DNA from: Streptosporangium minutum | GTDB taxonomy: Bacteria > Actinomycetota > Actinomycetes > Streptosporangiales > Streptosporangiaceae | Reading direction: 5' to 3' | Length of the DNA stretch: 33,249 nucleotides | Assembly (NCBI RefSeq): GCF_002149035.1 | Contig: NZ_NGFP01000085.1 | Span: 1 to 33,249, forward strand | Shown here: positions 27,328 through 30,368 of the stretch, one piece after another | How the letters are laid out: each line of letters starts with the position of its first letter | Numbering within the stretch: position 1 is the stretch's first letter | Notes under the pieces: model-generated | What the model was told of the DNA's origin: nothing | Databases searched by the model: none | The model's input: the letters and a program-made list of their open reading frames with translations, nothing else | Program-made: the position numbers and the translations under genes

Positions 27328-27657
27328 CTAGACGGGCGGCAGCTCGAAGACCTGGTCCAGGGCGGTCACCTTGAACAGGTGCCGCAGGTAGGGGGTCAGG
27401 GCGATGATCCGCATGGCGGACTCACGGGTGCGGGCGGTGTTGTAGACGTTGATCAGGGCCGCCACACCGGAGGAGTCGACGAAGTCCAGACCGGACAGAT
27501 CCAGCTCCAGCAGGCGCAGGTCAGGCGAGAACAGCTCCTGCACCAGCGTGAAGAGCTCGGCGGCCGTGTCGTAGTCCAGGTCACCGGTGAGCACCAGGCG
27601 GGTGGTGCCCTCAGCGGTGCTCTGCACCTCGGTACGGAGCGGGGTCTTCTCGAGCAT
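27328..27657 (-). CDS. STAS-domain anti-sigma factor antagonist
   Basis: A 109-residue single STAS domain of the SpoIIAA/RsbV type. TTRLVLTGDLDYDTAAELFT is the N-terminal strand-helix region. LELDLSGLDFVDSSGVAALI holds the phosphorylatable serine (Ser62 or Ser63 in DSSG), the switch residue that an anti-sigma kinase phosphorylates and a SpoIIE/PP2C phosphatase resets. The ATG at 27657 is 6 bases after the stop of the B12-binding sensor gene. The phosphatase that could act on it is two genes upstream in the same operon. No anti-sigma kinase (RsbW type) is in the window, so the partner must be encoded elsewhere. Confidence 0.92.
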   Translation of the reverse strand: MLEKTPLRTEVQSTAEGTTRLVLTGDLDYDTAAELFTLVQELFSPDLRLLELDLSGLDFVDSSGVAALINVYNTARTRESAMRIIALTPYLRHLFKVTALDQVFELPPV

Positions 27658-27663
27658 CTGTCG

Positions 27664-28719
27664 TCAGGTCTCCAAATCGGCGCCGCGGTCGTGAGCCGCC
27701 TCGATCCCCCGGACCAGCATGTGGCGGGCACGGGGGAAGTCTCGCAGCTCATCACGGAAAATACGCAATCCCACCGCCAATGCCCTCGCCGGGACCCCGC
27801 GCGCCTGCAGCACGCCGCGGGTCCAGGTGACGAAGCCGGTGAAGACCTCGACGTCGTCGACGTAGAGGGCGGCGGCCAGGAAGTCGAGAATGTGACCGAG
27901 ATCCTCGGCGGTGGCGTCGAGCTGGTGGGCGGTGTAGGCGGCCATCGGCGGGTAGGCCCCGGCCAGGGCGGCCATCGCACCGGTGAGCAGCTCACCGCGG
28001 CGGCGCGTCAGATGGGTGTACTCCTCATCGGCCAGGTGGGCCGGCGCCTGCGACGGCGTGGCGAAGGACGGCAGCCCGCCCGCCAGACGGTCGGCGGCGG
28101 CGTCGGCGGTGGGAGCCCACGCGTCGGCGCCCAGCAGCCGGGCGAAGCGGCCGTCGGCGCCGAACCCGGGGCCGCCGGCCAGGACCGGCACGCCGACGGC
28201 CTGGCAGGCGGTGAGCGTGGCGTGCGCCCGGGGCAGCCGGGTGGCCAGGGCGCAGCCCAGCGCGACCGCGTCGGGCCCGCTCTGGTGCAGGTGGGTGATC
28301 AGGTGCGGGCCGGGCACGTTGGCGCCCAGGAAGTCGACCCGCCAGCCGCGCAGGCGCAGCACCTCGGCCAGCAGCCGGGTGGGCAGCGCGTGGTACTCGC
28401 CGTCGGTGCAGGCGACGGTGACGCGGCCCAGGGTCGGCTCGGGCCGGACACGGGTGGCGATCGCGGCGACGGCGCGCTCGCTGACGGCCGTGGCCCCGTG
28501 CTCGCGGGCGACCGACCAGCGGTTGGCCGCCCACAGCTCGCCGACGCGCCGCTGGGCGGGCGCGATGAGCTCCAGCAGCAGGCGCTCGGCGGGCACGCCG
28601 TCGGCCAGCAGGCCGACCACCAGGTCGACGGCGCCGAACTCGTCGGCCCGGCCGATGCACCGCAGGTAGTCCTCTCCGGCGGCGAGCAGGTCGCCGGCCA
28701 GCAGCCCGGTGCCGCTCAT
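27664..28719 (-). CDS. Cobalamin-binding sensor with CarH-type W-x9-EH motif
   Basis: A 351-residue soluble protein. Residues about 10-90 form the helical B12-cap domain; residues 97-210 are a Rossmann-type B12-binding domain. The cap holds W63 and E73-H74, an exact W-x9-EH motif. In CarH this trio packs over the adenosyl group of AdoCbl and makes it light-sensitive. The lower axial His is H110 in TDGEYHALPTRLL (E-x-H, with Pro for the usual Gly). The loop AGGPGFGADG fits the nucleotide-tail side. There is no MerR DNA-binding domain. Instead, the C-terminal ~120 residues form an all-helical domain (PMAAYTAHQLDATAEDLGHI, VGLRIFRDELRDFPRARHML) that resembles RsbR-type N-terminal sensor helices. 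ATG 28719 overlaps the phosphatase stop as ATGA. Probable role: a cobalamin/light input to partner switching. Confidence 0.88.
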   Translation of the reverse strand: MSGTGLLAGDLLAAGEDYLRCIGRADEFGAVDLVVGLLADGVPAERLLLELIAPAQRRVGELWAANRWSVAREHGATAVSERAVAAIATRVRPEPTLGRVTVACTDGEYHALPTRLLAEVLRLRGWRVDFLGANVPGPHLITHLHQSGPDAVALGCALATRLPRAHATLTACQAVGVPVLAGGPGFGADGRFARLLGADAWAPTADAAADRLAGGLPSFATPSQAPAHLADEEYTHLTRRRGELLTGAMAALAGAYPPMAAYTAHQLDATAEDLGHILDFLAAALYVDDVEVFTGFVTWTRGVLQARGVPARALAVGLRIFRDELRDFPRARHMLVRGIEAAHDRGADLET

Positions 28720-30368
28720 CGGGCGGCCCTGGCCTGTACGGCGAGCAGCACCCGGTCGTCCTGGACGTCGCCGCCCAGCCATTCGGTGCTGATCTGCTCC
28801 AGCCGTTCCACCGCCGCCGAAGCCGGCATGCCCGCGCAGGTGGACAGGGCCTGCATCAGCCGCTGCCCGCCGTACATCTGCCGGCCGGTGGGGCCGCCGA
28901 CGGCCTCGGTGATGCCGTCGCTGTAGAGCAGGCACAACTCGCCGGGGGCCAGATCGACGGTGACCGGGGTCATGACGGTCTCCTGCAGCGCGCCGAGCAG
29001 GGAGCCCCCGGCGGTGACCTCCTGCACGGTGCCGTCCCGGCGCAGGACGAGCGGCGGGGGATGCCCGGCGACGGCCAGGTCCAGCAGCACGTGGCCCTGC
29101 TGCCCGGTCCGCAGCGCGCCCAGGACCAGGGTGACGAAAGGGTTGGGGGAGGGGGAGGCCAGCAGGGAGCGGTTGAGCAGCGACGTCAGCCGCTCGGGGC
29201 GCCTTTCCAGCAGCAGCAGCGTGCGCAGGGACTGGCGGACCTGCCCGGCCAGGACGGCGGCGCGCGCCCCCTTGCCGCAGACGTCGCCCAGGACCACCAG
29301 CGGCTCGCCCGCGGCGCCGGGGCCGGGCAGGTAGAGGTCGTAGAAGTCGCCGCCGATCAGCCCGGCCTGCTGGGCCGAACGCAGTGAGCCGGCCAGCTCC
29401 AGCCCGGCCAGGGCGGGCAGGGCGGGCGGCAGCAGGTCACTGGTCAAGATCGCGTTGGTGGCGCTCTGCTCCTGGTACAGGGCGGCGGCCGAGATCGCCG
29501 CGCCCGCGCGGGCGGCGAAGACCCGCACCAGGACCTCGTCCTCCTCCTCGAAGGCCGGGCCGCCCTCACGGCGGGCGAGCACCAGCGCCCCGGCCGGGAC
29601 GCCGTTGCCGGGCAGCGGGGTGACGAGCAGGTGGCCGGCCTGGCCGAACCCGTCGGGCAGCAGCCATCGGGGGGCCTGGCCGGGATCCAGCCACCGGCTG
29701 GGCACCGGCGGGAAACCCGCCAGCGCCTCGGCCAGGCCGGGCACCTGCGCGGTGGAGGCCGCGGTGACCGCACCCTCCTGCAGGCTGTGCTGCCCGGCGA
29801 CCGAGCGCAGCCAGCCCGCCTGGCGGCGCCCGGTGGGCGGCAGCACGACCATGGCGGCGTCGGCCAGGAAGGAGACGGCGAGCTCGACCGCGGTGCGGGC
29901 GCAGCGGCGGGTGTTGAGCGAGGCCGACAGCCGCCGGCCGGCCTCCACCAGGAACTCGGTGCGCCGGCGCTCGGCCAGCAGCGCGTCGGTCCTGGCCGAC
30001 TCGGCGGTGACGTCGCGCAGGTACCAGGCGTGGTGGGCGACGCCGAAGGCCTCCCGGCGCACCCGCAGGCGCAGGTGGCCGCGGCCGACCTCCCTGCTGT
30101 CGCCCTCGGGGTGGTCGTGGCCGAACAGCGCCGCAGCGCGGCCCGAGGCCGCGGGGCGTCCGGGCAGGATCTCCGGCGCCATCCGCGCCGCCGCGGCGTT
30201 GACCATGACGACGACACCGTCGGTGTCGCAGAGCACCACGCCCTCGCTGCAGGCCTCCACGATGGCGCGCAGCAGTTCCTCTCCCGGCCCCGCAGGGGGC
30301 GGCTCGTCTGCCACGTGAGTGCTCTGCCGCATGCGATCGGTGCCGCCGGCGGGCCGTGTCGTGGTCAT
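28716..30368 (-). CDS. PAS-GAF-SpoIIE serine phosphatase
   Basis: A 550-residue phosphatase. Residues ~30-130 are a PAS domain (IVEACSEGVVLCDTDGVVVM). Residues ~140-320 are GAF-like (EFLVEAGRRLSASLNTRRCA onward). The PP2C/SpoIIE domain follows with all metal-binding motifs: SAQQAGLIGGDFYDLYLPGP, VVLGDVCGKGARAAVLAGQV, CLLYSDGITEAVGG and QDDRVLLAVQ. Such phosphatases dephosphorylate STAS antagonists like the one encoded at the end of the operon. The start was placed at ATG 30368, which has GGAAGG 8 bases upstream; a GTG at 30398 adds 10 residues and has no ribosome site. A palindrome lies at 30399-30415 just upstream. Confidence 0.9.
   Translation of the reverse strand: MTTTRPAGGTDRMRQSTHVADEPPPAGPGEELLRAIVEACSEGVVLCDTDGVVVMVNAAAARMAPEILPGRPAASGRAAALFGHDHPEGDSREVGRGHLRLRVRREAFGVAHHAWYLRDVTAESARTDALLAERRRTEFLVEAGRRLSASLNTRRCARTAVELAVSFLADAAMVVLPPTGRRQAGWLRSVAGQHSLQEGAVTAASTAQVPGLAEALAGFPPVPSRWLDPGQAPRWLLPDGFGQAGHLLVTPLPGNGVPAGALVLARREGGPAFEEEDEVLVRVFAARAGAAISAAALYQEQSATNAILTSDLLPPALPALAGLELAGSLRSAQQAGLIGGDFYDLYLPGPGAAGEPLVVLGDVCGKGARAAVLAGQVRQSLRTLLLLERRPERLTSLLNRSLLASPSPNPFVTLVLGALRTGQQGHVLLDLAVAGHPPPLVLRRDGTVQEVTAGGSLLGALQETVMTPVTVDLAPGELCLLYSDGITEAVGGPTGRQMYGGQRLMQALSTCAGMPASAAVERLEQISTEWLGGDVQDDRVLLAVQARAAR

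Follow-up and report, generated by a model that had tools for sequence, protein, structure and literature searches.

A stand-alone photocobilin encoded with a SpoIIE phosphatase in Streptosporangium minutum, and its possible part in light-controlled partner switching

Three tightly packed minus-strand genes lie at 27328..30368 of a 33,249-nucleotide (nt) stretch of Streptosporangium minutum DNA (GCF_002149035.1, contig NZ_NGFP01000085.1; hereafter the window, meaning the whole stretch). The first encodes a PAS-GAF-SpoIIE phosphatase, the second a B12-binding protein, and the third a STAS antagonist. By alignment, the B12-binding protein is a photocobilin of the stand-alone kind, and the near-constant unit among its relatives is SpoIIE plus photocobilin, with STAS being optional. 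We consider it fairly probable (roughly 0.62) that the photocobilin senses light and sets the SpoIIE phosphatase, which would then act in turn on STAS, a kinase, and a sigma factor. The photocobilin family and a suggested partnership with STAS, SpoIIE, and PP2C are already known; what is added here is a survey of the gene pair. The genes and their parts are as follows.

28716..30368, minus strand: PAS-GAF-SpoIIE (PPM-type Ser/Thr phosphatase) gene, 550 amino acids (aa), by Pfam PAS_8, GAF, and SpoIIE
30177..30278, minus strand: partial PAS domain (PAS_8) of the phosphatase, Pfam, residues 31–64, 26.4 bits against a cut-off of 21.8
29493..29903, minus strand: GAF domain of the phosphatase, Pfam, residues 156–292, 24.1 bits against a cut-off of 22.4
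28731..29300, minus strand: SpoIIE phosphatase domain, Pfam, residues 357–546, with motifs GGDF, GDV-G-G, DG--E, and DD intact
27664..28719, minus strand: photocobilin gene (B12 four-helix bundle, B12 Rossmann domain, and photoglobin domain), 351 aa, by its match to 8j2x
28459..28674, minus strand: B12-binding_2 domain with W63 and E73-H74 (adenosyl pocket), Pfam, residues 16–87, over cut-off
28390..28398, minus strand: E108-Y-H110, motif of the lower axial cobalt ligand (SasPcob His108), by alignment to SasPcob
28096..28428, minus strand: B12-binding Rossmann domain, Pfam, residues 98–208, over cut-off
27745..28011, minus strand: core of the photoglobin (biliverdin-binding globin) domain with D273 and W299, aligned through its length to SasPcob
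27328..27657, minus strand: STAS anti-sigma-factor antagonist gene, 109 aa, STAS_2 and STAS over the Pfam cut-off

The SpoIIE and B12 genes meet in an ATGA overlap, and 6 nt separate the stop of the B12 gene from the STAS start. A preliminary description made from the sequence alone had proposed this three-gene set and had pointed to W63, E73-H74, and E108-x-H110; the set was borne out by the Pfam domains and the two junctions, and the residues are all present as claimed.

The B12-binding protein as a photocobilin

In a search of solved structures, the best match to the B12-binding protein was SasPcob, a stand-alone photocobilin from Saccharothrix syringae (8j2x, with 8j2w a second structure; expectation value (E) 3e-101, residues 10–341), with 180 of 329 aligned residues identical (55%). 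The next was AbPcob (8j2y, E 2e-45, 106 of 296 aligned residues identical), followed by two other cobalamin-binding proteins (1e-12 and 6e-11) and two chains named CarH (5c8a, 6e-6; 5c8d, 1e-5). The homology to SasPcob extends over the full length and the domain order is the same; moreover, the SasPcob residues that contact adenosylcobalamin (AdoCbl) and biliverdin are without difference, W61, E71, H72, H108, H137, D270, and W296 corresponding to identical W63, E73, H74, H110, H139, D273, and W299. Binding and photochemistry of the S. minutum protein are predicted from this resemblance in sequence. The helical C-terminal domain, which the preliminary description had contrasted with the MerR domain of CarH but had not identified, aligns with the photoglobin domain of SasPcob and is assigned as such, and the Pfam Phycobilisome match within it (E 0.043, 14.2 bits) lies under the cut-off of 22.2. 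Because the domain binds biliverdin in SasPcob, red light is a likely input in addition to green, and the protein is probably a bile-pigment sensor in addition to a B12 sensor.

The SignatureFinder light signature of GxxW, EH, GxxH, and GxxxP (PMC11796333) is present as G60-x-x-W63, E73-H74, G107-x-x-H110, and G132-x-x-x-P136, and its positions are invariant in 30 aligned proteins, excepting G107 (at least 90%). W-x9-EH appeared in 175 of 20,000 shuffles of the protein, and together with [E/D]xH 20–55 residues downstream in 22 of 20,000. More telling than these odds is that the residues are conserved across relatives.

We followed this conservation, and that of the gene order below, through a close-relative set (48 loci in 53 sequence pieces, two loci having two copies and L052 and L054 being broken), a class draw (photocobilin at E 1e-40 in 63 of 394 genomes, own included; 67 non-own loci), and a phylum draw (a match at E 1e-20 in 28 of 396 genomes, own included; 20 other-class loci). 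Some species occur in both the close-relative set and the class draw, and the two counts are not additive. Among close relatives, the tryptophan, glutamates, and histidines of the two cobalamin motifs (W, E, H, E, H) are each kept in all 50 covering pieces, as is W299, and the biliverdin Asp, D273, in all 49. In the class draw the kept residues number 64 for W63, 65 for E73, 65 for H74, 64 for H110, 66 for W299, and 50 for D273, and some of the misses are gaps at L159 and L165, both of them fragmentary. The preliminary description had staked its case on orthologues keeping the W-E-H trio, and they do, save for the rare degenerate copies L160 and L178 and the fragment L165.

Two kinds of variant were seen along the way. 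At L160 (G455:C5:360155-369135), where the gene is open and adjoins SpoIIE, the equivalents of W63, H110, D273, and W299 are lost and E-H is kept; this copy is likely a light-blind natural variant. At L101, L104, L107, L162, L167, and L172–L175, all SpoIIE-linked, T, A, S, V, or Q replaces the biliverdin-contacting Asp, and at all of these except L175 Arg replaces His139; to judge by these residues, the branch is possibly green-light-only.

The phosphatase, the STAS protein, and conservation of the gene pair

The four intact motifs of the phosphatase are what we take to be the metal and active-site motifs of the SpoIIE domain, and residues 319–544 match 3t91_A (E 9e-6), a chain of known structure named 'Stage II sporulation protein E'. 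The PPM catalytic residues D341, D362, D484, and D538 are identical in all 59 aligned SpoIIE sequences (own, 46 from close relatives, and 12 from the phylum draw). The STAS protein matches TIGR00377 (55.9 bits against a cut-off of 53.45), and its candidate phospho-acceptor is S62, in FVDSSGV, presumably the phospho-site by its position in SpoIIAA/RsbV; D61-S62 is found in 56 of 56 photocobilin-linked STAS proteins (own, 25 close-relative, and 30 class-draw, with some species present twice).

A neighborhood scan with profiles of the three proteins placed a same-strand SpoIIE gene directly upstream of the photocobilin gene at 46 of 48 close-relative loci and 56 of 67 class loci, as compared to 0 of 20 other-class loci. 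The corresponding counts for a same-strand STAS gene within 2.5 kilobases (kb) downstream were 25/48, 30/67, and 0/20, and in the class draw STAS was always accompanied by SpoIIE (30 of 30). Contig ends limit the view upstream at L161 (34 nt), L096 (631 nt), and L112 (1066 nt), and downstream at L028 (152 nt) and L033 (12 nt). The SpoIIE-linked class loci span 10 family codes (f1, f3, f4, f7, f8, f86, f90, f99, f107, and f113), and at most class loci the SpoIIE and photocobilin genes overlap or nearly touch. Because the 9.58-Mb genome of S. minutum has only 18 SpoIIE matches, such a constant SpoIIE neighbor is unexpected by chance, with the proviso that related genomes are non-independent. The arrangement that the preliminary description had wished to see surveyed is thus widely kept, for SpoIIE more than for STAS.

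Some loci depart from the three-gene layout. Tandem photocobilin genes stand between SpoIIE and STAS at L023, L048, L124, and L126; L023 and L048 are from Microbispora, with both copies keeping all eight checked residues, and L124 and L048 probably represent one contig. No fusion of photocobilin to SpoIIE or STAS was seen in the 13 proteins scanned with Pfam, which covered part of the photocobilin frames and two SpoIIE neighbors. In other classes, 14 of the 20 loci match over both the B12 and photoglobin parts. L113 and L116 have the reversed order, with a phycobilisome-like (photoglobin) match ahead of the B12 domains; L114, L115, L117, and L118 match in the B12 part only, and L114 has a SpoIIE gene downstream; and at L112:823-2775 the photocobilin shares a single frame with GAF and ANTAR domains.

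RsbU/SpoIIE-type phosphatases and RsbV/SpoIIAA-type antagonists work together in partner switching, and the S. minutum genes resemble them in the intact SpoIIE catalytic residues and the adjoining STAS protein with its conserved Ser. They differ in that the sensor is a separate photoreceptor protein and that neither an anti-sigma kinase nor a sigma factor was found among the scanned flanking genes, although no search was aimed at sigma factors. Sigma-factor control is thus a step that we infer. What the scanned flanking genes encode is of other kinds: a RecD2-like helicase, a helix-turn-helix regulator, a P450-like and a phosphoenolpyruvate mutase-like protein, an L,D-transpeptidase, and a radical SAM protein. 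The genome has 88 HATPase_c_2 matches. When 66 of 156 candidate neighbor genes of the surveyed loci were scanned for anti-sigma kinases, 3 matched HATPase_c_2, and a phmmer search started from one of the three yielded further weakly similar frames, including those at L093, L094, and L146. At L093 and L094, SpoIIE, photocobilin, STAS, a second STAS, and a HATPase_c_2 frame lie all on one strand, with a PRC-barrel gene interposed at L093. These two frames resemble an RsbA-type anti-sigma regulator at 40.6 and 46.6 bits, far below the cut-off of 210, and by their predicted content the two loci would hold a nearly complete partner-switching set.

A light-driven phosphatase and its alternatives

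The published work on photocobilins provides the framework for interpreting the gene pair. According to PMC10979010, photocobilins bind AdoCbl and biliverdin side by side, green light drives photolysis directly whereas red light does so via biliverdin, and the SasPcob dimer is lost in light through monomerization. The same source describes a diguanylate cyclase that is light-activated, also by a separate photocobilin protein; in AbDPcob, AdoCbl lowers activity even before light and light raises it >10-fold, and AbPcob, with His at the Asp position, binds biliverdin poorly. AbDPcob, of which 8j2y is the photoreceptor part, shares the B12 and globin modules with the S. minutum protein but has its diguanylate cyclase fused, whereas in S. 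minutum the output gene is separate and the Asp is kept. By the same account, what stand-alone photocobilins do is less clear than what fused photocobilins do. The preliminary description knew of no characterization of such an operon, but STAS, SpoIIE, and PP2C had been named in 2024 as potential SasPcob partners in Saccharothrix (PMC10979010). As judged from listings and passages, our literature search returned no photocobilin-SpoIIE operon paper beyond that remark, nor a survey of the gene pair, with the caveat that Schneider et al. 2022 (on photoglobin) may treat gene neighborhoods, which would limit the novelty of the survey.

The gene layout, the family, the ligand, catalytic, and phospho-site residues, and the conservation of the gene pair are directly observed, and they suggest the following model. 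In the dark, the photocobilin would bind AdoCbl with H110 below the cobalt and W63, E73, and H74 around the adenosyl group, biliverdin would probably occupy the globin domain (D273, W299), and the protein would form a head-to-tail dimer. The Co-C bond would break under green light, or under red light acting via biliverdin, the adenosyl group would leave, and the dimer would dissociate. Through protein contact, this change would reach the SpoIIE phosphatase encoded alongside, whose activity would most likely go up in light; the phosphatase would dephosphorylate S62 of the STAS protein (or a STAS protein encoded elsewhere), which would then tie up an anti-sigma kinase and free a sigma factor. 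We take the phosphatase to be the likely direct target because SpoIIE is the near-constant neighbor and STAS is optional, and we expect activation rather than inhibition in light because AbDPcob activity rises with light. Light control itself, and the involvement of an anti-sigma kinase and a sigma factor, we likewise infer.

On the cofactor side, the genome encodes a single heme oxygenase (E 3e-54) and a single corrinoid adenosyltransferase (E 1e-60). Beyond the photocobilin, B12-binding_2 matched the genome only in two open frames, 1206 and 1259 aa long, which we take to be the size of methionine synthase, so that no CarH was found. Across the class draw, heme oxygenase (PF01126) occurs in 33 of 63 photocobilin genomes (31 if the weak matches in G377 and G554 are dropped) and in 127 of 331 others (Fisher p 0.0495, uncorrected for kinship), a co-occurrence that is weak at best as support for biliverdin supply.

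Several points weigh against the model. The contact between photocobilin and phosphatase is presumed, and the PAS and GAF domains of the phosphatase may answer other signals. Upstream SpoIIE is missing at 11 of 67 class loci (among them L161, with its 34 nt of contig there, and the fragment L165), L050 of the close-relative set has STAS without SpoIIE, and 26 of 56 SpoIIE-linked class loci lack a STAS match within 2.5 kb downstream; with no upstream SpoIIE at any of the 20 other-class loci, the sensor serves other partners too. The biliverdin-contacting Asp is gone in 12 of 56 SpoIIE-linked class copies (kept in 44), and 30 of 63 photocobilin genomes, Microbispora among them, are without a recognized PF01126 heme oxygenase, which speaks against biliverdin being used universally or coming from this enzyme everywhere. 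Biliverdin-free SasPcob was monomeric in dark and light (PMC11796333), so the dimer model may fail in organisms that lack biliverdin. Finally, biliverdin-free SasPcob affected a foreign enzyme with the opposite sign (PMC10979010).

The system could instead sense AdoCbl supply, with AdoCbl binding setting the phosphatase and photolysis being incidental in a soil organism. The drop in AbDPcob activity on AdoCbl binding before light (PMC10979010) and the corrinoid adenosyltransferase of S. minutum fit such a role, but among close relatives the light-harvesting biliverdin residues D273 (49/49) and W299 (50/50) are kept beyond the needs of cobalamin binding and SasPcob with AdoCbl alone does not dimerize in the dark (PMC11796333), so we think it unlikely. 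We are similarly doubtful that the photocobilin itself binds STAS proteins and kinases or serves as their scaffold, leaving the phosphatase as a parallel input, in the manner of the non-heme globin of RsbR in the stressosome. PMC10151467 treats photoglobins and the RsbR globin domain as homologous; both are globin-fold sensors in a sigma-switching context, and a STAS gene follows the photocobilin at 30 of 67 class loci. However, the near-constant neighbor is SpoIIE, STAS being absent at 26 of 56 SpoIIE-linked class loci, and the S. minutum globin, which appears to be of the bilin-binding kind, is fused to B12 domains and has no fused STAS domain by Pfam.

That the genes are mere neighbors with no functional link seems very unlikely: the link is drawn from gene context and other-class loci show no upstream SpoIIE, but the adjacency recurs in 10 family codes, mostly with overlapping or near-touching genes, against 18 SpoIIE matches in the 9.58-Mb genome of S. 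minutum. Least credible is a DNA-binding light repressor like CarH, a role that we rejected for want of a MerR domain (Pfam, NCBIfam). The protein does share the AdoCbl light-sensor module of CarH/LitR, with W-x9-EH and E-x-H, and a comparison with CarH models, as the preliminary description had proposed, gave an NCBIfam TransRegCarH match over residues 43–198; at 42.4 bits this is far below the cut-off of 400, no MerR or other DNA-binding match was obtained, and the photoglobin domain is extra. What stands of the earlier account is thus a CarH-like AdoCbl light-sensor module within a partner-switching set, and what falls is an uncharacterized CarH variant, the protein being a photocobilin that is 55% identical to relatives of known structure.

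Implications for photocobilins in actinomycetes

Whether SpoIIE and photocobilin form a widespread light-driven phosphatase system of the class, in which a separately encoded two-chromophore B12/bilin sensor switches a PPM phosphatase and partner switching, is to us an even wager; if so, this would be the general role of stand-alone photocobilins there. The conserved pair points to a specific enzyme to test, the SpoIIE phosphatase. If the light-driven model is true, light perception in the branch lacking the biliverdin Asp would be confined to green and the rare copies of the L160 type would be light-blind, the phosphatase would offer a separable light-controlled enzyme for optogenetics, and sigma-factor switching in filamentous actinomycetes would come under the control of green and red light.

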